Shown here: in pieces, positions 27,091 to 54,912 of the stretch
Layout: every line of letters starts with the position of its first letter
Numbering within the stretch: position 1 is the stretch's first letter
Assembly: GCA_006384855.1 (NCBI GenBank)
Contig: VCJN01002971.1
Span: forward strand, 99,262-163,261
DNA: 64,000 nt
From: Tetraselmis striata
Taxonomy: Eukaryota; Chlorophyta; Chlorodendrophyceae; Chlorodendrales; Chlorodendraceae
Reading direction: 5' to 3'
The notes under the pieces: model-generated
What the model saw: the letters and a program-made list of their open reading frames with translations, nothing else
What the model was told of the DNA's origin: nothing
Database searches by the model: none
Position numbers and translations under genes: made by a program

Positions 27091-30000
27091 TCAGTCATCG
27101 GGGTCGGTGTCGGTGGTCGGCGGTCGGGCATCCGCGGGCGGCAGCTCAGGCTGCACCTTGCCCACTGCGTCCTGGAGGCGCCCCAGCGACGACACCACCG
27201 CGTTTCCCGCGCCGGAGGCCGCCAGCGCGCGCGAGCGGAGGGACGCGGACGCCGACGCGGCCGGCGACGTGACGGGCGAGCCGCTGCTGGCGCGCTTCAT
27301 GCGGCTCTTGTAGTTGCTCAGCTCCGCCATCATGCGCGCGCGGCTGCTGGCCACCGCGTCCGCCGCCCCGCCGTCCGACGGCGGCGCGGCCGGGCTTGTT
27401 GGCACAGGTTGGCTGCCCGCCGCAACTGCCGGAGAGGCGCTGGACGGCGCGGCGCAGCGGGAATTTCCGTCGGGGTCCGCTGCCTGGCGGGGCGGCTTGC
27501 TGGGCGCGGTGTCCGGCCTTGCAGGCGCGGGGGCATCGGCGACGGACCGCGCCGAGGCCTCCGGCGGCCGCGACGGGAGTTGCGGCTGGCTCAGGGGGAG
27601 CGTGACGCTGAGGCCCAGGCTCTGCGACGCGGACATGACCGTGGAGGCGCGGCTGCTGCCGATCTCGTCGCGAAACTTGCGCTTCAGCTCCTTGTTCAGC
27701 TTGCGGTAGTAGTAGTTGTCCTTACTGAGCGCCTGGGGGGGGGGGGGGGGGGGGGGAGGGCACGGGTCAGGGTTAGAGATACTGTGCCGCCGAAGGGGTA
27801 AACTTTATCCCTACGTGCTTCCTCCACACAGTCTCGCATGCGTGCTTGCTATCTGGGTCCCATTAACCGGGGTGGCGCGCCAGTGCATGTTGGGTCACCC
27901 GGTGCGCGAAGTATTGCCGGGGCGGAGGGTGGGGGCCACAGCGAGTCACCTCCATCTGCTCCTTGTAGAATCGCACCAGTCGCTGCAGCTCCGCCGAATC
28001 CAGCGACGCTGCATCCGTCGGCCCTGCGCCGGACGAAGCGCGCCGCGAAGCCGCCCCGTCGGCCGGCGCCGCAGCAGTGTTGCCGCCGGCGCTGTAGCCC
28101 GCCTGCTTGAGCAGAGCCGACACCTTGTCGGCGTGATCGCGCTGCAGCTCCGTAAGCCGGCGGTCGAACTCCATCTCCTTCTGCCGCAGCCGGTAGTTGG
28201 CCTCCTGCGCCTCGCGGCTCGCCTCCGCCGCCGCGACCTCCGCCTCGGCCACCTTGGCGGCATTGGAGCGCTCCCGCTCTCGTCCCGACACCAACGTCTC
28301 CATGTATTGCGCCAGCAGGCCGCGCGCATCCGCCAGCCCCAGCTCCTGCGTGCGCTGCTGGAACGACTCCGCCGCGTCCGCTCCGTCGGCAACCGCGGCC
28401 GCCGCCTTGGAGGACTCTTCCGCGAGGTACCTGGGCCGATGGGCGGGCGGGTCGAGGAGAGTTGCGCATGTCAATAGTATAATACGACAAATTCGTATGA
28501 GCTAGCCCACTACACGCGTTTACCTGAGCCGCCCCAAGGATTCGCATTTCTGTTGCCCCCGGGATATGGATAAACGAAGCGGATAATGGATAAACGAAGC
28601 GGCACATAGAATGGATATGCGACATTTTGTCTCGGAAGGGGCAACGGCGGTGTCGCAAGTTGGTGAAGGGATGCGCACTCGAGCTCGGCGTCGAGAGCAT
28701 CTATGGCGTCGTCCATCTCGCGCATCGACGCCTCCTCCTCCGGCGGCAGGAAGTCCTGAGCCTGCAGGCGCGCCTGCAGCGCATCGCGGCGCGCGGTCGC
28801 GCTCTTCAGCTGCTCCGAGAGCGCCGCCACCTCGCCCGCGGCCCGCGACGCCGGCCCCTCCTCCGCGGCGCGAGCCCGCAGCGGCTCCAGCTCGGCCTCC
28901 AGCTCCATCATGGCCAGCGACATCTCCTTTATGTGGTTGCCGATGGCTTGCGACGCGCGAATGCGGCGCAGCTCCAGCTGGTTGCGCTGCTTGGCCTGCG
29001 CGTCGCGCTGCGCCGCCAGCAGGACGCGCTTTTTCTGCAGCCCCTTCAGCTTCTCCTCCGCCTCTCGCTTGGCGGACACCGCGCGCATCTTGGCGTCCAG
29101 CTCTGCCTTGACCTGATCATACGGGGACCACCCCGATGCAATTTGAGGCGGCACTATCAGCGGCTCGATATGGCTGACCTCACCACTCGCAAACCCGGTC
29201 GGTGCCAGAGAACTCGGAATTGGAAGTCGTCTCGAAGGCTAAATTTCGACTTTTCGATGTACATCACGTCGACAGACCCAACGACCTGACTCGAGTTAAG
29301 ATACTGAGCCACCTTTCTCTACCCATATCCACCTCCTGGTACTCATAGTCCTATGAGGAATGGACTCGCCGCCCCCTCGGCGGCGGCGGGTTGACGGCGA
29401 CGTTCTGCATGCGTCCTGGGAACAGGCGGGTTGAAGTGGGGTGGGGGTTGGCCGCACCGAGGGGGGGGGGGGGGAGGGGGGGCCGACCCACCTGCACCAG
29501 GTCCGCCGCGCCCTGCGCCTTGCTGACCGGGGCGCCCCGTGGAGTGGTGGCGCGCGACAGCAGCGCGCGCCCCCACGACTCACTCGGCGCGCTGCGCAGC
29601 TTGGCCTCCTTGGCCTCCCTCGCTGCGCGCGCCGCCTGGTCCGCGCTCTTCTTTATCGCCCCGCGCTGCCGCTCGTTGTCCGCCTCCAGCACGTGCACCC
29701 GGCGGCGCGCGTCCTCCAGCTCGTGCCGCAGCGCCGCCTGCTCCTTCTTCAGCGCCATCAGCCGCACCTCCGCCTCGCGCCCCGCCTCCTTCGCCTTGCG
29801 CCGCACCTCCACCTGCGTGTTGCGCATCGCGTCCACCTCCCGCTCCAGGCTCTCCACCTTGGCCTTGCTTCGCGCCCGCTCCTTCGCCATCTGTGGACCG
29901 GGTCACAGGGGCAGCCCTCAGCCCCCCGCCCTCTTTTTGCAACCACAGCATGAAGCTTTGCCAGGGCAATGAGGTGGCCCGCCAATGCAAACCCTCCAGA

Positions 30001-33000
30001 TGGCACATCACGAAAAAAGGAGGGACCCGCGAGGAGGTGAGAAAGGGGTGAGCCTAGAGTGGGATATGGGGTGGCAGAATGGAGGGCGGAGAAATGGTGG
30101 CCAAAGGTGCTGGAGCTCTGCGTGGTGGCGGCCGTGGTGGCAAACACAGAAGGATGGCCGACGGGCTCGCGGCTAGGGGGGCGGGGCTCCGCGCGCACCT
30201 TGGCGGCGTCCGCCTCCTTGAGCTGTGCGCGCACGGCGGCCAGCTGCTCCTGCATCCGCGCCAGCTTGGCCTCGTACTCGTCCCGCAGCCGCTGCCGCTC
30301 CTCCTCGCTCTTGGCGCGATCGCTGTCCAGCGCCTCCAGCGCGGCGCGCAGCTCCTCCACCTTGGCCTCCCGCTCCGCCACCTCGCCCTGCAGCGCCGCC
30401 AGCCGCGCCTCGTACTGCGCCGCCAGCTGCCGCTGCTGCTGCTCGTTCTCCGCCAGCCGCGCGATGAGCTCCTCCTTGGCGCCGATATTGTGCTCCAGCT
30501 CGCGCAGCTGCGCCTCCAGCCCCGCCCGCGACGCCTCAAACTCGCGCGTGGCCGCCTCCACCTCCTCCTGCTTGGCCATCACCTGCTCCTCCATCTCGCC
30601 CGCCGCCGCCACCTCCTCCGCATCCTCGCCGATCATCACGTCGTCCTGATCCTCCAGCGTCTCCGCCGCGCTGGCCGCCGACGAGGCGCGCAGCTGCGAG
30701 TCCGCCGACTCGGCCACCCCCTCCCACTGCGCCCCGTCGGCCGAGCGGCTGGGCGGCCCGGCACCGCCTGGCGGCCGCGGGATCCGGGAGGGAGGGCCGC
30801 CGCCCTCGGAGACGCGCCGCACGTTGTGCAGCTCCGCCAGGGCCGCCTTCAGGCGCTCCTCCGGTCTCCGTCTGCTGCAGCATGATGGAGTCCTTGTCCT
30901 GCTCCAGGCCGCGCATCTCCGCCAGCTTCTCCGCAAAGATCACCTGTCACGGGGTCGCCCACGCCAAGCATCAGTCCCCGGCCCCCCCTGGGACCATCCC
31001 GACGGCCCCCCCCTTCCCAACGGGCACACAGCGAAGAGCCGTCGCCAGCGCACCTCGTCCCGGCCCAGGTCGTCCTGCGCCTGCTGGAGGGCGGCCTTCG
31101 CGGCGGCGGCCTCCGCCTCCGCCGCCTCCGCGCGCTGCTCCGCCACCGCGGCGCTGCCGCGCGCCGCCTCCGCCATCCGCCGCAGCTCCTCCATCTGCTG
31201 CTCCAGGCCCGCAGGCACCTGGCGCGAGGCCAGCGCGCCCCCTGTGCCCCCCGCGCCCTGTGCCATCCCGGGCATATTTCCTCGCGTCAGTCCCTGCCGG
31301 TCGCACGCGACAGTGCCACTCACACCAAGCAAAGCAGTGCCCATCACAACAAGCACCTCAACGACCCGGCAATCCATACTCCCCCCCCGCCCACCCCCTT
31401 TCCCCATTTCTACCCTTCCTCGCTCCTCATGCTGCGGCCATCCGGTTGGCGACACATACCTGCTTTGCCTGCCACCTTGCCTGACGGGCCGACTGCAGGC
31501 GGCCCAGCGCCGCCGATGCCGGCCGCTGCCTCGCGCCGCCGGCCGCTCCATCCCCTGTCTGCGGCCGGCTGTCGGCTGCCTCCGGCGGCGCAGCGGCCTG
31601 CCCAGAAATGCCGGAGGGAGACAAAGGGGAGGGGGGGGGGGGCGGCACGGCAACTGGGGTCAGGCATTGGTGCGCCCTGGGCTGGCGCATGGGTGTGCGA
31701 TACAGGGCCTGGGGTGGCTACGAGTACAGCGTCTCACGGCCACTAATAGGCATGTCCAGGCGTCATTATCCCAGCGCTGCAGGGGAGGCGCGACCGCACC
31801 ATCGTGGCGATCTCCACCAGGCGGTCGCGCACTGAGGCCGGGATCTGGCCGGCGCGCTGCATCTCGTGGCTGAGGGCCACCATCGCGTCAAACTTCTCCT
31901 GCTGCCAGTCCGCCTGCAGCCCAGTTTAAGGTAAGGCATCAGAGGGGGGTCAGAGTAGGGGGGCCGTGGGGGGGGGGGGGGGGGGGTAAGTATGGTGGGG
32001 GGGGGGGGGGGGGGGCATCATCAGGCCGGCCCTGCCTAACCGGTAGCGGCAATGTGAAATCCCCCCCCCCCCCCCTACCCCCACCCCCGTCCTCAGTCTG
32101 CGGGCAAAAGGTGGCTGTGTTGGCTGGGTAGACGAATGAAACACCTGGACTGGCGGGCGGTGGGGCCCCATATTATGGGCAGGTGCAGAGTGTTGCTGTT
32201 AATCAGTAGGGTCGCACATGCCCTCCACATCGAAACTGGACTGGGACCCTGTGCTGGCGGATTGATGCACACAGCAGCGAGCGCGCGTGCAGGAGAGAGC
32301 GGGGGGGGGGGGGGGGGTATGTGAAGCTGCCTTGGACTACTGGCCGCACACACGCATGCACGCATGTCCAGGCGGGTGGTGGGTGTCCCCCGTACCTGCA
32401 TCTGCAGCGCCGTGTTCTGCTCCACCAGGTCCTGCAGCGAGCGCGAGGTCGCGGCGCTGGCAGCTTGCGCCTGGTGCAGGGAGGCCTTGGTCGCGGCCAG
32501 CTCCTCCCGGAGGCTCTCCACCTGGCCGCGTAGCGCGGCCACCTCGCCCTCCGCGCCGCGCCCGCCGCCGCCCAGCGCCTCGATGAGCTGCTCGCGCTCC
32601 GCGTCGGTCAGCCCCCCCAGCACGCCGTCCTGCAGGCCGCCGCCGCCGGGTTTCTCCAGCTGCTGCCGCAGCAGCTGCAGCTGCATGGACTCAATCTCGT
32701 GCTGCATTGCCTGCACACTGGACTGCTGCAGCCCGCAGCCGCCACGCATACAAGTCAGACGGACAGTCGAGCGGAGGAAAGTCGAGGGGCACAGGGGAGG
32801 TTAACGCCATTGAATAAGAGTTGTGCTTGAAAAACAATCTGATAATCTAAGAAGACGAGAAACTACGGCAGTGGTAAAAATATTGTATTCTAGGAAGACA
32901 TTCCAAGAGCGGCCAGAGTGGGTTGGTGGTGGTGTGTGTGAGGTGGAGGGGGGGGGGGAGGGCATCGCCCATCCGCTGCCAGCAGACCCCAGCCCATTGC

Positions 33001-35931
33001 CGCGCCAGGGATGCCGCCATGCGCTTTCCAGCACCGGCGTTGTAGGAGGGGCCAGGTATGGTCTGTGGTATATGGTCCAGGCAGGCATGTGGGGCGAGGG
33101 GAGGAGCATGAGGGGGTCTGGGCTTGGCGAGGGGGGAGGGGGAAGAGGGGGGGGGGAGGGGGGGGGGCTCCTCACCAGGCCCACATTGACGATGGGCTTG
33201 TTGCGGATATTGCGCGCGCGGTTGGCGTACTTTAGCGTGTTGATGGACTCGTCGATGCAGGAGTCGGACGTGCTGACGGTGGCGATCATCAGCGTGCGGC
33301 TGTTGCCGCCCAGCGAGTCCTGATGAGAAGCCCCCACGTCGCAGCGACGCACCCAGTGAGCGCATGGGAGTGTGTGACAGGCAGCGCAGCACAGCAGACC
33401 TGTACATGCCTGGACGTGTGTGTGTGTGTATGCGCTGCTAATGAACCTGCATTAAGTCATCAGCGCGCACGGCCCGCACCTGCAGCATGCGGGTGATCTT
33501 GGAGTCGCGGTACGGCACATGGGTGGCGCGCCGCCGCTCGTCGCCCAGCGCACTGATGACGTTGCCCAGCGCCAGCAGGCCCTGGTTGATGGTGACCGTC
33601 TCCTTCAGCCGCTCGCCTGCGGCGTTGCTCTTCTTCACCCGCTCGCTGCCCGCGAGGTCCACGAGGTGCAGCTGCGGGCGACCGAATGGGGCAAGGGTGG
33701 AGGAGCGGGGCAGAGGGGGGGGGGGGGGGGGGGGGGAGTCAGCCTGGGATGTCGCTCAGCTCCAGCAATCTGCCCGCAGCCACCATGCCGCACATGCTTT
33801 GCATGGCATGCCTCGGGGGTCCTAGCAAGGCGCAAGGCTAGCAGCCTGGGGGAAGAAACACTCTGGGGCGTGGAGAGTGCCATGCCCTTTTAGCGCCACA
33901 AAACCGAACCAGGTGTGCTACACTGTGCAGCATGAGCTGGGTGCCCCCTCGCTTGAGCCTCACCTCACTGGGAGGGGCTCCAGGTAGGATAGCAGCAAGC
34001 CCCCCCCCCCCCCCCCCCCCCTCCTCCCTGGTGACCCAGGTCTCAGCGCCCCAATCTTTCCCGCGCGCGCGCACCTTGGACGTCACCACCTCCGCCTTGC
34101 CTGCCTCTGCCGCCGCGAGCGGGTGCTGCTGCATGATGATGGAGAAAATGGCGTGCGAGCGCGAGGACTGCTGGTTCATGTTGGTCTCGCCCGTCACCCG
34201 CCCCACCGAGCCAATGTCCAGCAGCCGCAGACACTCCTCGTAGCCCATGGCCACCTGGGCTCCGCGGAGGGTCAGGCGGTGCTGGTCAGGGCGCTGTTGA
34301 GGGCAAGGAAGCGGGTTGGGGGGGGGGGGGGGGGGGGGGGGGGCTACCTCTTCGCAAGCGCCTGCCACGAAGATGTCGCCGTCGCCGCGCTCCCGGATTT
34401 GCAGCATGCCGGAGGGCGTGTCGGGCCGCAGGAGGTCGCGGATGCTCTCGTTGTAGACCTCCACAAACTGGCAGCGCACCGTGAAGCGCGTCTCGGCACG
34501 CTTGTCATGGATGCCCTGGAAGATGGTGCTGCGGTGCGCCAGACGGGCGGCTTTGGGGTGTGAGTCAGGTGAATTCTGGTGATGGAGGTGGAGAGACACT
34601 ACAGGAAAACAAGCTGCGGTGGGGGGGGGGGGGGGGGGGGGGGCACCGGATGACGCGGGGGATGACGCCGTGCTGGTCAATGGGCAGCGACGCATTGTTG
34701 CCGGTCCCCATCGTGTGCGTCTTGCCGCTGCCTGTCTGCCCGTACGCCAGCACCGTGGCGTTATACCCCGCGAAGCAGCCCTGCACCAGTGGCTCCACGC
34801 ACCTGCTGTACAGCTCCGCCTGCGTGTGGTGGCGCACAGCCACGGTGTCAGGCCCCCCGCCGCCCTGTCAGCGTCTGCCTGCCTGCCTGACTGGCTCGCT
34901 GCGCATACGCCCAATGTGCCCCGGCCTGGCACACCTGCGAAGACTGCGGCCCAAACACGTGATCGAACGTGAAGATGCGCTGGTTGCCCAAGCTGATCCG
35001 GGAGTGCTCCTCATCCGCGAGGATGCACATGCTGGCACGCTCCGCCCGCTCCTGCGTCCCGGCGACGCCATGCCCAGTCAGCTCAGAGCTCTTCCGGCAA
35101 CCGCACGCCAGGGGGGGGGGGGGGGGGAGAGTCTGCCGCGCTCATCCATTGCACCCATCGCAACAGCCAGCCAGCCACTCCTGCTGGGCGCATGACCCTC
35201 CCGCTGCAGCGCCCCTCCAAGCACCCCGCCCGGCTTCCAGCGCACCTTGGCCACCAGCGGCCGAGCGCGCAGCGCCACTCGCACGCAGGTGTCATCCTCC
35301 TCGCCCGCCTCCACCGCGTGGCTCTGCAGCGAGGCGCCGCGCAGCGGCCCTGCGCCCCCACACCCTATCAGTCCCAGTGTACAAGGTGTGCTCAGGATGG
35401 CGGAAACCCTCCTACCCTGCTTCCACGTCCGCCCCCTCTGCCCCCCCCTTCTCGCGCACACACAGAGGCCAAGCTGGCGGCGACCATCCTGCCGTGCTCC
35501 CGCCCCCTCTGCCCCCCCCCCCCCCCCGCCTTGCTCCCACAGGCGCGCCGTCCCCAGGCCAGTGGCTCACTGCGTGGTGTGCTCCGGCCCGACGGTGGCC
35601 TGCCTCCGCCAAGCATCCCGCCTGCCGGGAGCTGCGTGCTCCTGGTCAGAGCGCGCCGCGGCTGGCAGTGTCGAGGGCTGCGTGGGGGGGCGGCTGGGCG
35701 CGGGGCCTCCGCCGAGCAAGGGGGGCGCGCTGCGTTGCCAGCGGAGAGGCGCCCTGCGTTGCCTGTGGCTGGTATCAAGTGTTCGTCGCAGGCTGAGCTA
35801 ACTGCAGAGGTGGCGCGCTTGCGAGGCGGGCCGCGTGCTAGTCTTTTGGCCGACGGACCAGGTATGCCACTGCGAGTGGCGACGACCGCCGCGATAGGAC
35901 GGCGACCAGGCCCGCGGGATGCGGCATCCAT
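27091..35931 (-). CDS. kinesin-4 family microtubule motor with long coiled coil
   Basis: Kinesin-4 motors walk to microtubule plus ends and act in spindle, phragmoplast or ciliary transport. Exons (minus): 35931-35571, 35349-35246, 35051-34935, 34819-34647, 34528-34348, 34254-34075, 33671-33480, 33319-33176, 32725-32396, 31913-31800, 31597-31460, 31257-31054, 30943-30199, 29890-29492, 29112-28679, 28430-27950, 27732-27091; about 1,645 residues. The motor (about 140-485) shows [11 protein letters not shown]-loop GQTGSGKT (221-228), switch I NQQSSRSH (339-346), switch [10 protein letters not shown] (375-382) and [13 protein letters not shown]. The run [16 protein letters not shown] and NIRNKPIVN place it in kinesin-4. 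Long E/A/R-rich coiled coil follows, then a P/S/A-rich tail. The N-terminal extension of about 140 residues before the motor is unusual and least certain. One extra base near 30861-30864 breaks the frame in exon 13; removing it restores phase. Confidence 0.93.
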
Positions 35932-44200: not shown

Positions 44201-44639
44201 GGGGGGGAGAGGGGGGGGGGGGGTCCCCACCACCAACTACTCTGTATATGTGCATCACGCTATGCTGATGGCGGTGCCTGCGTGCGTGTGTTGGGGGCCG
44301 CCCTCACCCGTTGTCGTTGGGGTAGAGCGTGCCGTCCAGGTCGAAGATGAGCGTCCTCGCCTCCCTCTGGCCCCGAGCAGCCCTCTCCTCCTCCGACGCG
44401 CTATCTCCGGCCGCCCCACCCCGAGCGCATGCTCGGAGCGTGGGGCGCGGTGGTCTAAGGTGAACCGGACAGGGGTGCTCGTAGCGGTGCCACCTGGCGC
44501 TCGTGGCCGTCAGTGATCGAACGGCGACAGGGGGCGTCGCGCACGGCCCCCTCGCCCTCCAGGTGCTGGTGGTGCGATAGAGGTACGCCGAGTCACAGGA
44601 CACCGCCGGCCCGCCTGCTGGCGCGTTGCTCACCGCCAT
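41248..44639 (-). CDS. HAD-superfamily pyrimidine 5'-nucleotidase-like protein
   Basis: The family (SDT1/pyrimidine nucleotidase type) removes phosphate from pyrimidine nucleoside monophosphates; some members clear non-canonical nucleotides. Exons (minus) 44639-44308, 43358-43139, 42910-42857, 42246-42133, 41684-41588 and 41429-41248 give about 332 residues in consistent phase. HAD motif I is IFDLDGTLY with the nucleophile D100 and D102; motif II is FTNTGE (T198); the motif III lysine is in AKPQLEAF (K232); motif IV is FEDSLKN (E256, D257), a pattern common in this subfamily. The cap region contains GNAERYMHEVLGIPKDEV. The first 95 residues are poorly conserved and could include an organelle-targeting peptide; the ATG at 44639 is the best start but not certain. 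The exon 4 donor could instead lie 8 bp downstream in an alternative reading. The gene is head-to-head with the UvrC-UvrB fusion gene. Confidence 0.88.
42060..42081 (-). repeat. homopolymer tract in the nucleotidase intron
   Basis: A run of about 20 C on the plus strand lies in the intron between exons 4 and 5. Further runs occur at about 42978-43027 and 44200-44222 in this gene. Confidence 0.85.
43940..43995. repeat. (AGAATC)n-like short tandem repeat
   Basis: Imperfect units such as CAGAAT and CAGAAC repeat in the first intron of the nucleotidase gene. Confidence 0.6.
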
Positions 44640-45018
44640 GATTGGGAAAGCTAAGGGATAGCGGAGCTCGCGCGCGCGGGGGTGGGAAGGGGGGGGCAGA
44701 GGTGGCGGATGTGGCAGAGACACCGCGCGCTGATTTTGGCCGACGAAGGGCGGAAGATGCTATGTGGGCTTTTCGGCATGCAGGTGGTGAATCACTCGCG
44801 GGAGTACCAGTACCCTTTCCCTTCCCCCGCCTGCGGCATGGTTATTTGCGAAGTGGCTCCGCGCTGCTCCGAAACCAGTCGTCTCCCAGCGTAGTCGTCC
44901 ATAGCGCTAGTACTAAGAGCGGCGGGACTCGCGGAATGTCGTCGTCGTCGCTTTGATCGCCACCTGGTGGTGCTATCCGCACAGCAGCACCCGCAGTGAT
45001 GATCGACGGGACTCGGCA
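44640..45018. promoter_or_regulatory. probable shared promoter of two divergent genes
   Basis: This 379-bp gap separates the predicted start codons of the nucleotidase (minus) and the UvrC-UvrB fusion (plus). It must hold both promoters and 5' UTRs. No TATA box or clear operator was recognised. It also limits upstream coding space: no GIY-YIG-like sequence is found here in any frame. Confidence 0.55.
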
Positions 45019-48000
45019 ATGACCACATCCCGCTCAGCGCACGCACGCTGCACCGCAGCGTCCGGGATCAGCATGCCACGCGTGGACTCTGCCGCCGCCC
45101 CCTTGCTGCGGCCCCCTTGGGCGACGGGCCCCCGGCGGCCGCCGGCGGTTTGGCGGCCTTCGGCAGCGCGGCCGCTGCCTCGTCCGCCCCCCAGAGAGCC
45201 GCCCCACCGACCGAGAGTCGGCCTGCGGTGCCTCACCTCCCTGACGACACAGAGCCCCGTGATACCCCGGGACGATCCCGTCGCAGCGAAAGCGGTGGAC
45301 TGCTTGGGGCTGCAGCGAGCTGCCCGGGCGGTTGAGGACACGGCGCTGGCGGCGCTAAGTGGCTCCGTGCCGACGCCCACTGCGGCAGCGAAGGCCTCAG
45401 CGCGCGTGGCGGCGCCCTTGGCTTCCACGCACGGGGGATATCGGCTCCAGCAGGCGCTGGAGATCGGGGACGCGGACGCTGTGGCGGCGCTGCTGGCTGG
45501 CGGGGGTGCAGGCTGGACGGACTGGGCGGTGGCAGCGTCGGAGGGGCTTCGCGCAGCGGCGGAGCGGGCGGCCGCCCTGCGAGGGGTGGCGGCCGCGCTC
45601 GGCCTGCGCCGGCCTCCGTGGCACCTCGAGGCGCTGGACATCAGCCACCTGGCGGGCGAGGGCACAGCGGCCGGGCTCGCGGTGCTGCTGGCCGGCCGCC
45701 CTGCGCTCTCGGAATACAACTGCCTGGCAGTCGATGCAAACGTGGCCGCGGGCGACGACTGCGGCGCGCTGAGACAGGCGGCGTCGGCTCGGGTGGCCCT
45801 CTTTGAGGGCGGGCCGACCGGCGCGGGGGGCGCTGCAGCCGCGCGTCGCAGGCCGGACCTCATCCTCATCGACGGCGGGCGCGGGCAGCTTGCGGCGGTG
45901 CGCGAGTGCTTCCAAGGTAGTATCTCACTTGCAGCCAGGGATCCCCATGCAGCGCGCCCCTTCGGCCCGCCATGTCACACAGCGCTCAGCGGTGCAGCCG
46001 AGGAGGGACAGGCGCAATCTGGCAGCGTCTTTCTGCCCCTTTGTTGCATCACCGGCAAACCGGGCGCTGTACCATATTGTCTGGGCCATGCACATCGCTC
46101 AGACCTTATCCCCCCCCCCCCCCCCCCCCCCCCCATCCTAATTCCCTGCGTGCAAACTCCCTGGACTGCCCGGGCCGCAGGGACTGCGCTGGAGGCAGTG
46201 CCGCTCGTGGCGCTAGCCAAGCAGCAAGACCACATCTACACAGTGGGACGGCCGCACCCGCAGACGCTGCCAGACGCCTCCGCGCCGCTGCGGCTGCTGC
46301 GGCAGGCGCGGGACGAGGCGCATGCCACCGCCAACCTGGGCTACAGGTGTGACACCGCAATTGCGACGTGCCGCTGGGGAGGCGCAGCCCCTCTGGTGAA
46401 GGACTGCCGAGGGGGAAGGGGGGGGGGGGGGGGGGGGGGGCATCCGTCTGTGATCTACGTGCACGTGCGTTGCAGAGGGGACTGAGGGGTATCGGCGGTG
46501 TTCATCTATACCAAGCTGGTCGCATATACTCTGTCCAGAAGAGCGTGAGAGCGTGTTTTCACGGGAGTGCAATTGCCCCCCCCCCCCCCCCCCCCTAAAC
46601 CCCCCCGCTTGGCACCCACTGCGCCTGCCCGCCTCCAATCCCTCAGGTCCCTTGCCCGCCAAAACCTGTGGGTCAGCTGCCTGGACGGCGTGAAGGGCCT
46701 GGGCACCGCGCGCCGCGCCGCACTGCTGCTGCAGTTCCGGACGGAGGCGGCGCTGCGGGCGGCGACCGCCGCAGAGCTGCGCGCCGTGCCGGGCGTCGGG
46801 GCGCGCCTGGCGGATGCCGTAGTACAGCACCTGCATGCCAGCGGCGCGGCGGTGTCGCCCAGCCGTGTGGCGGAGGGTGAGTCGGTGCGCTGGGCTGTCC
46901 TGCCTACCTCGCTGGGCTGTGATGGGCTGCCGCAGGGTGCTCTGCCTTGCTTTGGGGGGGGGAGAGGGGGGTGGTGTATATATGAGGGCGCTGCCTGCGT
47001 CTGAGGCGGTCTGTGGTGGCGGCAGGCGGCGCTCTCCTGGACATCCGCGGGCGGCTGGCGGCATTTGAGAGCGCGCAGCACGCGTTCAAGGCAGACGGGG
47101 CCCCCAACGCGAACCGCGGCCCGGCGGACGAGGTGCGCGGCGCGGTGCAGTGGTGGGAGGACCGGCGCCCCTTCCACGCGGCCGCAGCCGCCTCGCCGCT
47201 CCACCTCGCGGCACTGGCGGCCACGCTGGCCGCGGCCTTCCGCGTGTCGGCGCAGCGGGGCGCGGACGCGGCGGAGCTGGAGGTTGCCCTCGAGCTCTTC
47301 CTGCCCACCAGCAGCCAGCCTGCCGCAGCCGGCGCGACCGCCTCCCAGATAGGGCGCAGCGGCGGCGCCCCCGAGCGCGCCAACAAGGTGAGCGCTGTGT
47401 TGCCCGCTGCCCCCCGCCGGCGGTAACATTCTTCTGCCAGCTGGAACCCGGCTAACCTCTGCGTGGCGCTACAGGCTGCGTCGGGCCTGCTGAGCGCGCA
47501 CGCCTTCGACCTGGTCGCGCCCTTCGCACCGACGGGCGACCAGCCCAGCGCGATCGCGCAGCTGGCGGAGCAGGCGGGGACGTTGCGCTTCCAGACGCTG
47601 CAGGGCGCCACCGGCACGGGCAAGACCTTTGTCATGGGGCAGCTCATCCAGCGCTGCCAGAAGCCGGCGCTGCTGCTGGCGCCCAACAAGGTCCTGGCGG
47701 CGCAGCTGTTCCACGAGCTCAGCGAGCTGTTCCCAGCCAACCGGGTGGAGTACTTCGTGAGCTACTATGACTACTTCCGGCCCGAGAGCTACAACTCATC
47801 CTCCGACCTCTACCTCGAGAAGGTCAGCCAGGTCAACGCGGACATCGACCGCATGCGGCACTCCGCCACGCGCTCCCTCTTCGAGCGGCCCGACACCATC
47901 GTGGTCGCCAGCATCAGCTGCATCTATGGACTCGGCATGCCTGAGCACTACCTGCAGCAGGTGAGGCGCGCACACTGCAATGCAATATACGACAATGCAG

Positions 48001-50056
48001 TGCAATGCAATGCAATCACGCACAATATAACAATGCAATGCAAACCACATCACACTCAATGCAATGCAATCCAACACAATCCAATGCAATGTAATCAAGC
48101 ACAATATAACAATCCAATGCAATACAATATACAACAATACAATGCAATACAATACAATGCAAAATGCAATACCACAACATAACACAACTCAACACAATAC
48201 AATACCGCAACATAACATAAGGCAACGCAATGCAAAACCACAACGCAAGACAATGCAATGCAATTCCATACACATCATTCTGTGTGATATCCATTTTGTT
48301 ACGAACACCCATGTTGACCACCACCGCCCTCTTCCATTAAAACAACGACCGCCATGATTCCGCAGGCCAAGGCGCTCCAGACCGGCAATAGCCTGCCGCT
48401 GCAGCAGCTCGCAGCCATGATGCAGATGCTGCAGTATCAGTGCGTCCCCGCCAGCGCGGAGCGCGTCTCCCCGGCGCGGCTGGAACGCGGCACGTTCGCC
48501 CTCGCACTGCCGGCGGCGCGCGGCGACGACGCGGTGGTGCACGTGTCCCTGCCGCACCAGGAGAGTGTGCTGCGGCTGCGGTTGTCCCCCTCCCCACCAG
48601 GTCACTCCCTTGCCCCACCTGCCGCCAAACAACATGTTTTCCATTTGTTCTGGGCTCGGAATTAATGTACCCGCGCCAGCAAGTCTTTTGTTTATGGATT
48701 ACAGCATCATGCCAGGGTAATCCACATAAACCCGCGCTACTGTTGTCCTCATGTGCAGTACAATTACGACCGGTATGATGAATACGTATGTCATCCGCTG
48801 TATCTGTGTTGAGCATCTGTGCCGATACTGCCGAGAAAGAAACTGCGTGGAAAATGTCCAGATTGTCAGGATGATTGTTATGGGCCGACATAAATATGCG
48901 AGGAGGTGTCTTCATCACACACACATACACACACACACGCGCGCGCACACATACATACGGGCGCCGACGTGCCTGTAAGAACCCCTTAGTATAAGCCTTA
49001 GATTGGGCTTGCATGCGGCTTATACGAACATTTCCTGTAGTTCCGCCATAGTTTTGTCTCCATCTGACCTCTAGCAGGCACGGCAAGTTTATATTCGCAG
49101 TGTTCATGTTACCGCGCCGGCACCCATATGTTTCGGGACAAAGAAACCGTATATAGAACTGTAGGTGGTTGGAGGGCATCACGGCATCCCAGTTGGCATA
49201 ACAGCTAAGCCCTTCCGTATATGTATGTGGGTATATATGTATACATACATGTATATATACACATATTCATATATATTGATACGCTGCCTGAGTCCGCAGC
49301 ACCTTGTCCCGTGCCTCGGTGTGCGTCGCAGCTCTGACTCGCCCCGCTCTGTCCAGACAAAGACCTGCGGGGCGAGTGCGAAACCGACGCAGACGACCTG
49401 TACTCCATCGCCTCCATGGAGCTCCTGCACACAGGTGAGGCCTCCGTGCTGCCAGCCAAGGGAGGCGCCACTGTCCCCGCTGCGGCGCTGTTGAACCACA
49501 GCATGTAAACAACCGTGTTATTAACGTGCCAATACTGTAAAGCACGAAAACCATACATACACATGATCATGAGATGACATTCACCTGATACCATCCCGAC
49601 TCTCAAGTGCCGTGTGATTTGCCCAGCGGCACTTCCGCTGCCCACTGCCACAAGCCCTATGAGGAACCCCCCTGTGGTCGCGCCGATGTTGTGGTGGCAG
49701 GCAGCAAGAGCAGCGGCAGGTCGGACGAGGGTGCGGAGCCCGTGGAGGGTTTTGTTCTGTACCCGGCCAGCCACCACGTGATGCATCCGGAGGAGCGGGA
49801 GCGCATCCTGGCGGACATCGAGGCCGAGATGGTGGCGGGCGCGGAGCAGCTGCGGGGCGAGGGGCAGCCGCTGGCGGCGCAGCGCCTGGTGGCGCGCACC
49901 CTGCGCGACCTGGAGCAGCTGCGGGCGGAGGGCTTCTGCAGGGGTGACTCTTCCCCCCTTACCACCATCACCACCTCCCTCCCCCCTGAGGTTGACTGCC
50001 TCTTCCTTGTGCCAGACACGCCTCCAGTCCGTCCCTTTTCTAAAGGGGAGGCCACA

Positions 50057-50095
<39 letters not shown>

Positions 50096-53000
50096 CTTAT
50101 GTGTGCTGCCACGTGGGCCATGACTATGCCCTGTTAAGCCAGTGAAGCGGGAGGGACAGGGGGGGGGGGCGGGGGGGCATTGTCTGAGGCTGAAAGTTGT
50201 GACAGAACCAGAGCAGCAATCTGGAATTAGGAGCGTCCACAGCGTGGGAGAAGTCGCAGTCGAGAAGGTTTCACTGTTTTTTTATTGGGATACTGTATTA
50301 AGCTGAGGTTGTAAAATCTTACATCTAGCTGCAGCCACCCACGCAACAAGGCTGGTTGGTCCCCTTTGGCACTCCGCCTTGTCTCCCCCCCCCCCCCCCC
50401 CCCTTCCGTGGGTGGTTCGGCTAGCGACGGCAGTGCGCTTGGAGCTCACTTGCTGCGCTGGCGCGCTGGCTGCGCAGGCATCGAGAACTACTCCCGCCAC
50501 CTGTCTCAGAGGGCTCCGGGCGAGCCGCCGGCCTGCCTGCTGGACTACTTCCCCGCGGACGAGTGGCTGCTGCTGGTGGACGAGTCGCACATCACCGTGT
50601 CGCAGCTGCGCGCCATGCACGCCGCCGACCGCCGCCGCAAGGCCACGCTGGTGCGCCCCGCCCCAACGCTGAGCATCAACATCATCCTTATAGACGTCAC
50701 AGCAGCAGCAGCAGCGGTGACACGCATACCAGTGCGGGTGCCGGTGCGCCTATAGTCGCACATGTCAGAACCAGTAATGTAAGCCTCAGATCGGGCTATG
50801 CGCGGGCCGACGCGATATTAAAACACTGCAAATTTTAAGCTGCCCTACCTGCCACAGGTCAATTCCAGATGAAACTATAGCGGAGCTATTGCGCATATGA
50901 ACGGGGTGCCGACTATACGGGTGCCGACATGGCAATAAGAACAACGCGAATGAGAAGCTGCCCTGCCTGTCAGAGGTCAAATGCAGACCAAACTATAACG
51001 GAAGTACAGCGGAGGTGCTCATAGGTTGCACGCAAGCCCAACTGTACACGAGCGCCCCTACGGACAACGTGATGACGAGGCCGCACCTGCTCGCCAATGC
51101 CTGCGATCCATGCACCTGCGCTGGCAAAACTTGGCGAGCCTCTCTTGTGGGGCCGTGTCTGTGCCCTCAGAAGAGCCCCTCCCCCCCCCCCCCCCCCCCC
51201 CATCCCCGGCGCGTTGCTTGCTCCCTTTTGCTCCTCTCCGCCCTTGCCCACAGGTGCAGCACGGCTACCGGCTGCCCAGCGCGCTGGACAACCGCCCGCT
51301 GACGGAGGCGGAGTTCTGGGAGAGGGTGCCGCGCTGCGTGTTTGTGTCCGCCACTCCCGGCCGCTTCGAGGCGGAGCACGTGCGGCCGGAGCACGTGGTG
51401 CCGCTCGTCCAGCGGCCGACGGGCATCCTGGACCCGCGGGTGGAGGTGCGGCCGCGCAGCGGGCAGGTGGACAACCTGCTGGCGGAGGTGTACACCCGCA
51501 TCGCCCGGGGGGAGCGCTGCCTGGTGGTGACGCTGACGAAGAAGATGTCGGAGGAGCTGAGCGGCGTGCTCAACACCCACGGCATCCGGTCCCAGTGGCT
51601 TCACTCCGGCGTGAAGGTGTGTCCCCCACGATGGATGCGCCCCCAGTTATCATATGTGCCCAAGGGATGCCGGAAGTCCGCTACATGTACACCACAAAAT
51701 GTGCTGCCGAGTTGGAATTGTCATGCCGATGCGCGGGAGACTGTCCATAAATTGCACAAGATGCTAGCCTCTGCGCCCCTCCAAAACCAAAGTTCTCCAT
51801 GCCCATTCCTGCCAATGAGCTGGCGCGCCAACTCCACAGCTGTCGCAACTCAAAAGCGCCGATTATTTCCGATCCTTGGCTGCTTTCTGCATCAGTGATT
51901 CCTCCCATTTCCTCGCACATTTAGTGAAGGCAGCATGAGGTTGTTGCTCCTGTTGTCGCACGTCTTGCTCGCACAAGACATGCGGGTGCAGAGGAGCCCC
52001 TCATGCAAGACAACCCGGCGGCGCTGCGCAAGTCGGGCTGTCAGCAGCCTACCCGGCGACGGGTGAACCGTAGTCCCGGATGACCCGGAATAATTCGGTT
52101 ACATATTAGCGCATATTCCGCAATGCCAGCGGTCGTACATCCCTTTTCCGCTCGGTTGAGCGGTCGTCTCGTACGCGAGAGGTCCCGGGATCGATTCCTC
52201 GCCAATACATATTCGGCAATATCGTCCCGGCATGTCCTGGGTTTCCCCGGTTGATGCATTAGCCCTTCGGGGTTCGAATGAGGCAATGGTCTGCGGGCTA
52301 TGCCAGACATACGACTGCGGTTGGCGCAAGAGGTCAAGCGCTGGGGCGGCTTCGGCCGATGTCCCGGGGCGAACTTTACCTTTTACCAGCGGTCGAATAA
52401 AACGTGTTACTGACAACCTGTCAGGACGCCAATCACGGATGGCGAGCCATGCAAATATACACAAACTCTGTGGGATATTACAGCTCGTCTAACAGTACTG
52501 TCAAATGAGGCTACAATGCGCAGCTACTGCGGATAATCCGTGCTGAATGACCCCCCCCCCCCCCTTCCCCCCAATTGTCCCCCTCGTTCTGCCTTCCCCC
52601 TCGTTCTGCCTGCGAACACCCAGCCCATGCAGCGGGTGCAGATTCTGAACGACCTGCGCGACGGGCGCGTCGACGTGCTGGTGGGAGTCAACCTGCTGCG
52701 AGAGGGGCTCGACCTGCCAGAGGTGACGGCGAGCGCGAGAATGGCCACGCGCCGCCGCCCGCCCCTGCCGTCCTGCTCTCCACCACCGCTGAGCCGGCAG
52801 CTGAGGCCCATGCTCCACTGCGTGCCTGTCTGCAGGTGTCTCTGGTCGCTGTGCTGGACGCCGACAAAGAGGTTCGAACGCCTGCATGCCCAAAGGGCTC
52901 ACCCGCGCGTTCGTTGTGAGTGAGGGAGCGGCCGTGTTTGTGGAGAGGAGTAGGGGGAGGGGGGGAATCTTGGTGGTGGCGTCACCCCCTTTGATGTCGC

Positions 53001-54053
53001 GCCCGCAGGGCTTTCTGCGCAGCAGCACCAGCTTGATCCAGACCATCGGGCGCGCGGCCCGGCACGTGTCCGGCATGGCCATCCTGTATGCGGACAAAGT
53101 CACGGATTCCATGCGGGTGCGCCAGCCAAGCTTAAGCGCATCGATGACTTTGTCCTTGCGGGGCCCGCCACCGTGCTGACACCCTCCCCCCTCTCCAGAG
53201 AGATGTTCTTTGATGCCTGCACTAATGGCCCCCTGACTTGCCGTTCACTGGTGCCTTATTTGCGGGCGTTGTGCCATGGCTGGGCGTTGAGTGTAAACTT
53301 GAAGAGAGCCATGATGCGGATGCTGACACCGCCCTCCCTTTCTTCTTACCCCCCCCCCCCCCCCCTTACCCCCTTCCCAACTGTTCCTTCATTGGGAAGG
53401 CTGCGATGGACGAGACGCGGCGGCGGCGGGAACTGCAGCAGGCGCACAACGCGGCGCACGGCGTGGTGCCCACGCCCATCGTGAAGAAAACCGCTAACGT
53501 GCTGCTGGACGCCATCCAGCAGGAGGCGGGCGGCGCCGGCGGCAGCGGGGCGACCCGCCCGCGCGGCCCTCCGCCCGACCTGACGAATCAGCAGCTGCGG
53601 GTGTACAACGCCGTCTACGCCTGGCGCTCCTCGGAGGCGGCCAACCAGCGGCGGCGACCCTTCAAGATTCTGCAGGTCCAGCCCCCAGCGGAACCACCCG
53701 GACAGCAGCATCGTTTTTTGTTTTCTATCAGCTAGCCCCCCCCCCCCCCCCACCACCACCACCACCACCACCATCACCACCCCTGCAGCTATCCGCCCTC
53801 CTCCCGTCGTGGCTTAACGCGAGTCGGGCGTTATTGTCGGGTCGCGAGCCGGGCGTTATTGTAGCTCAACGCACTGGTGCTGGCGCGGCAGGCACGCACC
53901 ATGGCCGAGCTGGCCAAGAACCTGCCGCAGACGCCCGAGGAGCTGCGAGCTATATTCGGGATCGGCCCAGTGAAGGCGGAGCGCTACGGAGAGCTCCTGC
54001 TACGGCTCACTGCCGGTGCAGCCGCGTCTGGGGATGCGGATGAAACTGAGTAA
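45019..54053 (+). CDS. UvrC (C-terminal half)-UvrB-HRDC fusion, bacterial-type excision repair protein
   Basis: UvrB verifies DNA damage and UvrC cuts beside it in bacterial nucleotide excision repair. Exons: 45019-45916, 46181-46346, 46647-46876, 47026-47387, 47475-47960, 48366-48600, 49357-49434, 49701-49943, 50478-50650, 51254-51616, 52624-52722, 52836-52871, 53009-53116, 53400-53675, 53892-54053; phases agree throughout, 1,304 residues. Residues 1-40 ([16 protein letters not shown] onward) look like an import peptide. UvrC homology starts near 175: LDISH (D207), GDD (D247), LILIDGG (D285) and RDEAH (H347) match the four 5'-nuclease residues. Helix-hairpin-helix repeats span about 358-420, then an unassigned linker to 552. 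UvrB has GATGTGKT (K602), beta-hairpin [15 protein letters not shown] (D934), [27 protein letters not shown] and QTIGRAARH. The C-terminus is an HRDC domain (about 1215-1295; [20 protein letters not shown]). GIY-YIG and UVR regions are absent. Plastid repair is inferred, not shown. Confidence 0.94.
47975..48275 (+). repeat. degenerate CAATG/CAATA pentamer array in intron 5
   Basis: Units CAATG, CAATA, CAACA and CAATC repeat across about 300 bp with little G or T on the coding strand. The array fills most of the intron between the two UvrB exons ending at 47960 and starting at 48366. Confidence 0.85.
48959..49126 (+). mobile_element. MITE-like element copy in intron 6 of the UvrC-UvrB gene
   Basis: It starts GGGCGCCGACG and ends GCGCCGGCACCC. 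The body carries GATTGGGCTTGCATGCGGC and CATCTGACCTCTAGCAGGC, as in the other copies. Confidence 0.8.
50060..50094. repeat. (TG)n microsatellite in intron 8
   Basis: An uninterrupted TG run in the intron after the exon ending at 49943. Confidence 0.95.
50736..51055. mobile_element. two adjacent MITE-like copies in intron 9 of the UvrC-UvrB gene
   Basis: The end motif GGGTGCCG(G/A)(T/C) occurs three times (50736, about 50905 and about 50919). Family blocks GTAAGCCTCAGATCGGGCT (plus sense), then CTGCCACAGGTCAATTCCAG and CTGTCAGAGGTCAAATGCAG (minus sense) follow. This fits one copy inserted beside or into another. Confidence 0.65.
52140..52388 (+). mobile_element. tRNA-derived SINE, copy 2 (intron 10 of the UvrC-UvrB gene)
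   Basis: The head CCGCTCGGTTGAGCGGTCGT resembles a tRNA D-arm region and GGGATCGATTCC a T-arm/B-box. The body and CTTTACCTTTTACC tail match the copy at 16255-16495. Confidence 0.8.
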
Positions 54054-54912
54054 ACCCGTCACGAAAAAATCTAGGTAGATTCATTTCTTTTGTGCTTTAT
54101 ATCAAATAGATGACTGGTGAAAGTGGTGATACACGTCATACATAGTAGGATTGGCCGCGTCATAGAGAGTAGTGATAAGTTAAGGGCGCACGAGATGGTA
54201 GTCGTGGCAAACGATCGCACGGATTAGTGTATATTGCTTCAGATGAGTTGTGATTGACGCATGCGTTTCGTCAGCATATGTATAATTTGCGCACTTGTCG
54301 CTATCAATCTGCGCGAAATCATTCATCCATGGAACCCTGCTGGCTACATATAACATGCTTTATGGCATCTCCCGCCAAGAGAAAAGGGAGTAGGGTAATA
54401 AATGCAAGGAGCAGCAGGGATGACATGTATTGTAAATTGTAGTAGTGCTGAGGATCAGCATCGCCGGCGGAACCCCCCCCCCCCCCCCACCTCCCCCCTG
54501 GGCGGGTGGCAGATGCAGTCACGGCGCGTTCTTAAACATGTTCTTGCAATATAGAGGCGCGAGGCTGGCTGGTATTACTGGCGGCACGGCACGTTCGTAT
54601 TATTGGGGCGCGGTAGTAAGGGTATTAGACCTGAATCTTAACTACCATATATATATATTCATAAAACAAGCAGAAGAAGAAATGCTGTTCCATATACATA
54701 TGATCGGATGTAGACACCTAGAGTCGTGCCATTTTGTTGTTCTGCGCACGACGATCTACGGGTGCGGCATGCCGACGCAGGGACCAGGTATAACGCTCCA
54801 TAGTTCCCTACTGCTGGGGCCCACCCCAGGCACCGGCACTCTGCTTTGCGCTCGCCAGCACGGCTCGCGCATGCATCATACGGTACGCTGTTATTTACGT
54901 TCCTACTTAGCT

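Follow-up and report, generated by a model that had tools for sequence, protein, structure and literature searches.

A spliced gene of Tetraselmis striata predicted to join the UvrC 5'-incision nuclease half, a UvrB core and an HRDC domain in one protein

In bacteria, UvrB and UvrC are separate proteins. According to PMC7835731, contact between their UVR motifs is required for 3' incision, the 3' cut is made first, domain 4 of UvrB is auto-inhibitory, and domain 2 binds UvrA, the last being stated for the homologous module of Mfd. Partial relatives of UvrC are also described, such as Cho, which according to PMC1564403 keeps the GIY-YIG domain and lacks the EndoV/RNase-H-like domain and the helix-hairpin-helix (HhH) motifs. 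For flowering plants, a 2020 review (PMC6981420) states that the genomes encode no homologues of UvrA, UvrB or UvrC and that NER is seemingly absent from organelles.

The locus described here lies in a window of 64,000 nucleotides of Tetraselmis striata (contig VCJN01002971.1, positions 99,262 to 163,261) and encodes a partial UvrC that is the reverse of Cho and is joined to UvrB. The predicted protein resembles bacterial UvrB (TIGR00631, NF003673) in its helicase motifs, Walker A and beta-hairpin, but it carries the UvrC C-half in front, an eroded domain 2 and an HRDC domain instead of the UVR motif. With bacterial UvrC (PF08459 C-half; PDB 2nrt, 3c65, 8b0q) it shares the RNase-H-like D-D-D-H residues and the HhH pair, but lacks GIY-YIG and UVR. 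The HRDC domain is similar by sequence to those of RecQ (1wud, 2ma1), whereas the RecQ helicase body is absent and the domain is attached to UvrB.

Independent reconstruction of the exons gave one gene on the forward strand at 45019-54053, with 15 exons and a protein of 1304 aa (Table 1), as in the original prediction of a single spliced UvrC-UvrB gene. All 14 introns have GT-AG sites, every splice phase fits as had been claimed, the coding length is divisible by 3, and the frame contains a single stop codon, at 54051-54053; assembly gaps are absent from the window (N count, 0). The start of exon 1 was placed at the first in-frame ATG downstream of a stop. The 5' end of the gene is unsure because the first 136 codons have a non-coding-like codon-usage score of -0.157. 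The pentamer TGTAA, a possible green-algal-type polyadenylation signal, occurs downstream of the gene, and this copy is weak as a signal because seven further copies lie at 48090-53292.

Table 1. Positions in the window of the exons and predicted domains of the UvrC-UvrB gene.
Feature	Position	Strand	Remarks
Exon 1	45019..45916	+	Codons 1 to ~136, a putative presequence rich in Arg, Pro and Ala; UvrC RNase-H-like domain begins
Exon 2	46181..46346	+	UvrC RNase-H-like domain ends; catalytic His347
Exon 3	46647..46876	+	UvrC HhH pair
Exon 4	47026..47387	+	Linker, ~120 aa, without Pfam match
Exon 5	47475..47960	+	UvrB begins; Walker A (aa 596-603); beta-hairpin
Exon 6	48366..48600	+	UvrB domain 2 (UvrA docking), eroded
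Exon 7	49357..49434	+	UvrB domain 2, eroded, carries insertions
Exon 8	49701..49943	+	Domain 2 ends; UvrB helicase
Exon 9	50478..50650	+	UvrB helicase; motif II DESH
Exon 10	51254..51616	+	UvrB helicase; SATP motif
Exon 11	52624..52722	+	Uvr[11 protein letters not shown]
Exon 12	52836..52871	+	UvrB
Exon 13	53009..53116	+	UvrB; QTIGRAAR
Exon 14	53400..53675	+	UvrB C-terminal end (to aa ~1197); HRDC starts (from aa 1224)
Exon 15	53892..54053	+	HRDC continues to aa 1290; stop codon
UvrC RNase-H-like domain, aa 192-350	45592..46332	+	Across intron 1; D207, D247, D285, H347
UvrC HhH (HHH_5), aa 367-417	46681..46833	+	Pfam
UvrB, aa 563-1197	47505..53513	+	Profile positions 2-597 of 658
UvrB domain 2 (UvrA-docking), aa ~707-836	47937..49753	+	Most diverged part
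HRDC domain, aa 1224-1290	53592..54008	+	Occupies place of bacterial UvrB's UVR motif
TGTAA, possible polyadenylation signal	54431..54435	+	Motif match, weak

The domain matches of the spliced protein to Pfam and NCBIfam models are far beyond chance. The UvrC nuclease half and HhH motifs named in the original prediction were recovered as UvrC_RNaseH (PF08459; E = 1.3e-26) and HHH_5 (E = 1.1e-8), and the four catalytic residues aligned to those of the solved UvrC C-halves 3c65, 8b0q and 2nrt. The UvrC profile match begins at position 384 of 591. The match to TIGR00194 was confined to positions 362-573 of 574 and scored far under the cut-off for the whole protein (89.8; cut-off, 285.45), and that to NF001824, at 126, is below the whole-protein equivalog cut-off of 451. 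No credible GIY-YIG 3'-incision N-half was found when the six frames of the window were searched with the UvrC profile: besides the gene's own exons, only four hits at E >= 0.71 were returned, on which grounds it was dismissed that an N-half lies hidden upstream of the gene or in another part of the window. Profile searches of the fusion also found no central, UvrB-binding UVR motif of UvrC.

The UvrB part passed the cut-offs of both TIGR00631, the UvrB equivalog (753.2 bits; cut-off, 750.1), and NF003673 (762.3; cut-off, 743), with Pfam E values of 4.4e-9 for ResIII, 1.6e-19 for Helicase_C and 7.1e-20 for UvrB. The motifs GATGTGKT (596), SYYDYF (648), VDESH (933), SATPG (989) and QTIGRAAR (1134) are kept, and the beta-hairpin region around SYYDYF is largely retained. 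The profile match stops short of the C-terminal UVR motif (domain 4), which is missing; the bacterial UvrB rows printed in two alignments (four and seven rows) continue into a UVR-type end. In its place stands an HRDC domain (Pfam E = 7.5e-18) related to that of RecQ (PDB 1wud, 6.4e-5; RecQ model positions 522-587). The original list of a UvrC half, HhH motifs and a UvrB core thus stands but had overlooked this domain, and the description of a complete UvrB helicase has to be withdrawn, as the UVR motif is missing and the UvrA-docking domain 2 is eroded. Judged by its sequence, the fusion apparently lacks most of what bacterial UvrB and UvrC use for mutual docking.

The erosion of domain 2 was gauged on columns conserved in at least 90% of 34 bacterial rows, each bacterial row also being left out in turn. 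The fusion keeps 10 of 20 such columns in domain 2, compared with 65 of 78 and 136 of 153 in the helicase parts; the lowest left-out bacterial row keeps 0.77 in domain 2 and 0.88 and 0.90 in the helicase parts. Because the fusion also keeps a smaller fraction of the helicase columns than any bacterial row (0.83 vs 0.88; 0.89 vs 0.90) and has a long branch in the UvrB tree, part of the erosion reflects general fast evolution. Fully invariant columns of the helicase parts are mostly kept (41 of 43 and 94 of 98), and an invariant R, N and R of domain 2 are replaced at aa 748, 749 and 759. Counted on the alignment, the lost arginines correspond to residues 183 and 194 in the chain of B. caldotenax UvrB, which presumably have a UvrA-contact role; a literature search on such a role of these two arginines found no paper. 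The RGD of domain 2 is retained in a stretch where the alignment contains insertions. Against 22 rows of the cyanobacterial phylum, mean identity in domain 2 was 25.6% for the fusion and 39.1-46.8% for 12 other bacterial rows, some pairs within the cyanobacterial phylum being only 38.0% identical there; in the helicase parts the fusion reached 62.0% (controls, 62.8-72.9%) and 57.2% (59.2-66.5%). On these comparisons, domain 2 is the most eroded part of UvrB, eroded rather than gone.

In favour of a model that wrongly merged two adjacent genes, one for the UvrC C-half and one for UvrB-HRDC, a Pfam search of the translation of exon 4 gave no match. Modelled alone, exon 4 was predicted as helices only, with low confidence (mean pLDDT, 49.7). 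However, the protein contains no Met between Met19 and residue 606, past the UvrB Walker A, so that a separate UvrB would lack an in-frame ATG before that residue; the five ATGs at 46181-47633 all fall outside the frame of exon 5, and a stop at 47424 closes that frame on its upstream side. Exons 4 and 5 are only 87 bases apart, with GT-AG sites and continuous phase, the codon usage of exon 4 fits the gene (+0.245 per codon in the predicted frame; <= -0.027 in the five others), and TGTAA is absent between 44700 and 48089. With start codons, phase and codon usage all against it, the two-gene reading was dismissed as extremely unlikely, in agreement with the original prediction. Most exons tested show the codon bias of the gene, and exon 15 scored only 0.003 although it encodes HRDC. 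Bacterial contamination, already discounted on first reading, was dismissed on the introns and on the eukaryotic setting, as the neighbours in the window are kinesin-type coding pieces.

In a UvrB tree with 48 hand-picked bacterial rows, the UvrB part grouped with Cyanobacteria (100/99). Another UvrB tree comprised 65 of 114 rows (26 of 37 from the cyanobacterial phylum, 38 of the other 76, plus the fusion); viral loci and the partial locus L208 were dropped from the UvrB trees. The branch of the fusion measured 2.21 in the UvrB tree and 3.41 in the UvrC tree. The latter, with 44 hand-picked bacterial rows after exclusion of the seven longest-branched ones, gave no placement of the UvrC part; L175 (short) and L179-L181 were excluded from the UvrC trees. 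The UvrB trees suggest a cyanobacterial source for the UvrB part, for which the plastid ancestor is the simplest candidate. The endosymbiotic origin, first proposed as one possibility for the gene, is supported for its UvrB part only, the UvrC part not being placeable.

Similar fusions were sought in four UvrC searches, in which some genomes were counted twice. UvrC matches were present in all nine genomes or records of one search and, in the others, in 97 of 98 genomes of the cyanobacterial phylum, 27 of 30 genomes and 115 of 121 Chloroflexota-phylum genomes, and the longest reported frames holding them were 717, 807, 888 and 1210 aa. Each of the eight Chloroflexota regions with frames reported at 831-1210 aa contained a complete UvrC without any UvrB match, and in three of them the frame was only 637-669 aa in the retrieved DNA; other UvrC frames were judged by length or retrieved locus rather than individually. 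UvrB matches occurred in 58 of 59 cyanobacterial-phylum genomes, weakly in a few. The sole frame above 736 aa with a strong UvrB match (L208; 1172 aa reported) was rejected as a fragment at a contig edge whose UVR end is ordinary, and L052, with its UvrB match over 3.1 kb, is no intron-bearing algal gene but the uvrB of a cyanobacterium, interrupted by a long in-frame insert. None of 1901 ORFs of at least 150 aa from 211 loci matched both halves, and the HRDC domain had no blastp match at E <= 1 among them; the scan of genome contigs used the best 80 of at least 586 stretches. No prokaryotic UvrC-UvrB fusion was thus seen in the genomes sampled. Viruses scanned with the fusion protein gave no match, and with the UvrB alignment as query 31 viral loci were found, at none of which a UvrC match accompanied UvrB. 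The earlier statement that no such fusion had been described is consistent with a literature search by fusion names, covering few subscription journals, in which no paper was found.

We propose, with slightly less than even confidence, that the product is a self-docked translocase-nuclease, cyanobacterium-derived in its UvrB part and probably organelle-targeted, that makes the 5' cut only and perhaps acts without UvrA. A single nuclear gene would yield one protein composed of the UvrC 5'-incision nuclease (RNase-H-like and HhH), a linker, the UvrB core and HRDC, and this product probably goes back to an organelle; its first 83 residues include 13 basic and 2 acidic ones. Covalent linkage would replace UVR-UVR docking, and loss of the auto-inhibitory domain 4 may free the UvrB ATPase. 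With the DNA held by HRDC and HhH, the hairpin of UvrB would scan and stall at a lesion or unusual structure, and the tethered RNase-H-like domain would cut once, 5' of the lesion; UvrA would be little needed or dispensable, and other enzymes would complete the removal. Since the bacterial 3' cut comes first, a 5'-only enzyme would depart from the known order. That the protein performs UvrA-independent organellar excision repair as one polypeptide, whose de-repressed UvrB motor finds lesions unaided, which brings its own 5' nuclease and which no longer has the 3' nuclease or most of the docking surfaces of bacterial repair, is offered as a tentative suggestion.

The fusion could instead be a component of a canonical organellar UvrABC system, loaded by a UvrA encoded elsewhere in the nucleus and complemented by a separate GIY-YIG protein for the 3' cut. 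Its UvrB core, domain-2 RGD and 5' nuclease residues are retained, and Cho, as described in PMC1564403, is a bacterial example of a UvrC-like GIY-YIG protein without the C-terminal nuclease half. This reading is nevertheless doubtful, as two of the three lost fully invariant domain-2 residues are arginines, the UVR motifs of both UvrB and UvrC are missing, and six-frame searches of the window found no GIY-YIG part. The kinship of its HRDC with that of RecQ might also point to RecQ-like action of the HRDC and nuclease on recombination or replication intermediates rather than lesions, which appears improbable given that the damage-probing beta-hairpin region of UvrB is largely retained. Long branches in both trees and the eroded domain 2 would also be expected of a fast-evolving or decaying relic with no repair role. 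However, the frame open over 15 exons, the codon bias, the kept invariant helicase columns and the intact catalytic residues indicate selection, and a relic is therefore very unlikely.

In the preferred reading as a self-docked translocase-nuclease, the fusion is a natural separation-of-function construct, in that the parts known for 3' incision and UVR docking are missing, and it bears on the arrangement of the UvrB-UvrC-DNA complex. With a cyanobacterial-type UvrB retained in a eukaryotic gene and fused to a 5' nuclease, excision repair in organelles becomes open to direct test. If true, the UvrA-independent reading would give plastids a cut-down form of NER.

The spliced gene comprises 15 exons with 1304 codons plus a stop and is predicted to encode UvrC- and UvrB-derived regions in one polypeptide. 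Exon boundaries were placed manually, read from the sequence, and the window contains 0 undetermined bases. The rebuilt model has GT...AG borders in 14/14 introns and a continuous, fully compatible phase, in agreement with the original prediction of one 15-exon gene. Degenerate CAATG/CAATA repeats make up most of intron 5, and long stretches of poly-C or poly-G are present in several of the others. All Pfam hits on the spliced protein exceeded the curated cut-offs. The NCBIfam UvrB model (658 long) matched aa 563-1197 over positions 2-597 with 753.2 bits, slightly over its cut-off of 750.1, and the UvrC model (574 long) matched aa 180-397 over positions 362-573 with 89.8, far under the whole-protein cut-off of 285.45.

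Features of the fusion gene, its predicted protein and its neighbours
Feature	Position	Strand	Basis
Fusion gene	45019-54053	+	manual model
Intron 5	47961-48365	+	manual model
UvrC_RNaseH	aa 192-350		Pfam
HHH_5	aa 367-417		Pfam
ResIII	aa 574-685		Pfam
Helicase_C	aa 1033-1142		Pfam
UvrB	aa 1149-1189		Pfam
HRDC	aa 1224-1290		Pfam
DEAD-box helicase	18217-19701	+	single 495-aa open frame
KIF21A-like coding piece	29761-30939	-	2.4e-12
Kinesin motor coding piece	33841-35010	-	2.2e-21
Short open frame	44304-44759	-	no Pfam family

The possibility of two neighbouring genes was weighed at the junction of exons 4 and 5, which are separated by 87 bases. The exon-5 frame is shut on its upstream side by a stop at 47424, and five ATGs between 46181 and 47633 are all out of this frame; a separate UvrB would therefore lack an ordinary start. 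The next Met after Met19 is residue 606, which falls within UvrB, beyond the Walker A motif. Exon 4 matched no Pfam family even at E <= 1, and its codon usage, scored with the exon excluded from the training set, was +0.245 per codon in the predicted frame, like other exons, and at most -0.027 in the remaining five frames. On the predicted gene model, the claim that these are not two adjacent genes is thus upheld. Codons 1-136 have a non-coding score (-0.157), which leaves the 5' end and the existence of an upstream exon unsure, and exon 15 scored 0.003 despite carrying most of HRDC. The short open frame beside the gene ends in TLIFDLDGTLYPNDNG, reminiscent of how a HAD-type phosphatase begins; were this frame real, it would be a divergent neighbour leaving little space for upstream exons. 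When 19 window frames were compared with Pfam, 3/19 showed a family over the cut-off. The two kinesin-type pieces probably belong to one large kinesin gene and, together with the introns, argue against bacterial contamination, which had already been doubted on the grounds of introns and green-algal style. The attribution to a green alga was itself made from style.

Bacterial UvrC cuts 5' with its C-terminal half and 3' with its N-terminal GIY-YIG half, and a UVR element between them binds UvrB, as described in PMC7835731 (section 6). The predicted fusion lacks both the GIY-YIG half and this UVR, since its match to a UvrC HMM built from 63 UvrC frames starts at position 384/591. A six-frame search of the whole window with this HMM recovered the gene's own exons, including the short HhH exon at 0.013, and otherwise four hits with E >= 0.71. 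When aligned to solved UvrC C-terminal halves, the fusion conserves the catalytic positions D207, D247, D285 and H347. The title of Lin and Sancar 1992, cited in PMC7835731, names Asp, Asp, Asp and His, and by our own residue mapping these would be the same four.

The UvrB half was claimed to be a complete helicase, which holds for the helicase motifs, all intact, but not for the C-terminal UVR motif or for domain 2. The bacterial UvrB sequences displayed terminate in the UVR motif, whereas the fusion terminates in an HRDC domain, whose closest solved relatives are RecQ HRDC domains (1wud, 6.4e-5). Domain 2 is the most diverged part. Its mean identity to 22 cyanobacterial-phylum sequences was 25.6%, compared with 39.1-46.8% for 12 other bacterial sequences, and the lowest pairwise identity within the 22 was 38.0%. 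The corresponding values were 62.0% (controls, 62.8-72.9%) N-terminal of domain 2 and 57.2% (59.2-66.5%) C-terminal of it. Among columns conserved in >=90% of 34 bacterial sequences, the fusion retained 65/78 (0.83) before, 10/20 (0.50) in and 136/153 (0.89) after domain 2, and the lowest bacterial sequence, each being omitted in turn as a control, retained 0.88, 0.77 and 0.90. These comparisons indicate faster evolution across the whole UvrB half, an effect far stronger in domain 2 than elsewhere. Three of the eight fully invariant columns of domain 2 are altered (R to V748, N to S749 and R to A759), and 41/43 and 94/98 are retained outside it. Counted on the aligned chain, the two arginines fall at 183 and 194 in Bacillus caldotenax UvrB, and we take both residues to contact UvrA; a literature search for a paper on this contact found none. 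The domain 2 alignment contains insertions, and the RGD after the eroded stretch is retained. A splicing error was ruled out as the source, because the erosion is present within the uninterrupted exon 6 alone (27.8% versus 40.7-48.2% for eight controls).

The UvrB half grouped with the 22 cyanobacterial-phylum sequences against 26 others in a careful tree of 49 sequences (support 100/99), and likewise in a quick tree of 65 (99). Uniting the cyanobacterial sequences with the fusion outside was weakly rejected (p-AU 0.033), and placing it with crown Cyanobacteria was not (0.407); its exact position is unsure because the branch is long (2.21) and the composition odd. The UvrC half joined all cyanobacterial-phylum sequences at 89/81 and the crown ones at 85/79 in its best tree, neither starred, and placements with non-cyanobacterial (p 0.478) or deep (0.49) sequences were not rejected. 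It fell among long branches in a wider quick tree, and its closest single match was a Chloroflexota-phylum genome (41%; top cyanobacterial-phylum match, 40%). This half is too diverged to place, and the suggested endosymbiotic origin is supported for UvrB only.

UvrC matches were found in 9/9, 97/98 (cyanobacterial-phylum), 27/30 and 115/121 (Chloroflexota-phylum) genomes or records, some counted twice as the searches overlap. No UvrB was seen inside a UvrC frame across these 9, 98, 30 and 121, with unfetched frames assessed by length; the eight longest Chloroflexota frames, which were fetched, each held a whole UvrC and no UvrB. None of 202 matching plasmid records covered 80% of the query, and a literature search under the fusion names tried found no paper. 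Flowering plants lack UvrA, UvrB and UvrC according to a review (PMC6981420). Relatives of the fusion may well exist in other algae, perhaps already annotated. Among the 211 loci listed, only a bacterial contig titled Deltaproteobacteria (L037) carries both uvrB and uvrC, one frame following the other. A cyanobacterial uvrB (L052, 964-4071; one open frame of 1113 aa) carries a ~1.3 kb in-frame insert directly after GATGTGK of Walker A that looks like an intein. Five Chloroflexota-phylum UvrC frames (L212, L213, L218, L220 and L221; 831-1000 aa in total) extend ~170-350 aa upstream of the profile match, and UvrB of an IMG/VR contig (L097) has a ~215 aa open frame ahead of the match and a 216-aa tail.

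The missing parts, namely the GIY-YIG nuclease, both UVR elements and much of the UvrA dock, form a coherent set. As described in PMC7835731 (sections 5-7), UVR-UVR contact serves pre-incision complex assembly, the 3' incision and a further 5' cut that does not depend on damage, domain 4 auto-inhibits the UvrB ATPase and translocase, UvrA binding by domain 2 is stated for the homologous module of Mfd, and the UvrC HhH pair, retained here, serves 5' incision. The main rival, which seems to us somewhat less likely, is a canonical system in which UvrA and a distinct 3' nuclease act alongside the fusion. We prefer to read the fusion as a self-docked translocase-nuclease that would make the 5' cut only, given the coherent missing set and a covalent link that would render UVR docking dispensable. 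Loss of domain 4 would leave it de-repressed, and it is perhaps UvrA-independent. The domains, the retained residues and the affinity of UvrB are direct sequence results, and UvrA independence, the single cut and targeting follow by inference. Residues 1-83 include 13 basic and 2 acidic residues, and this putative single-incision enzyme may act in an organelle.
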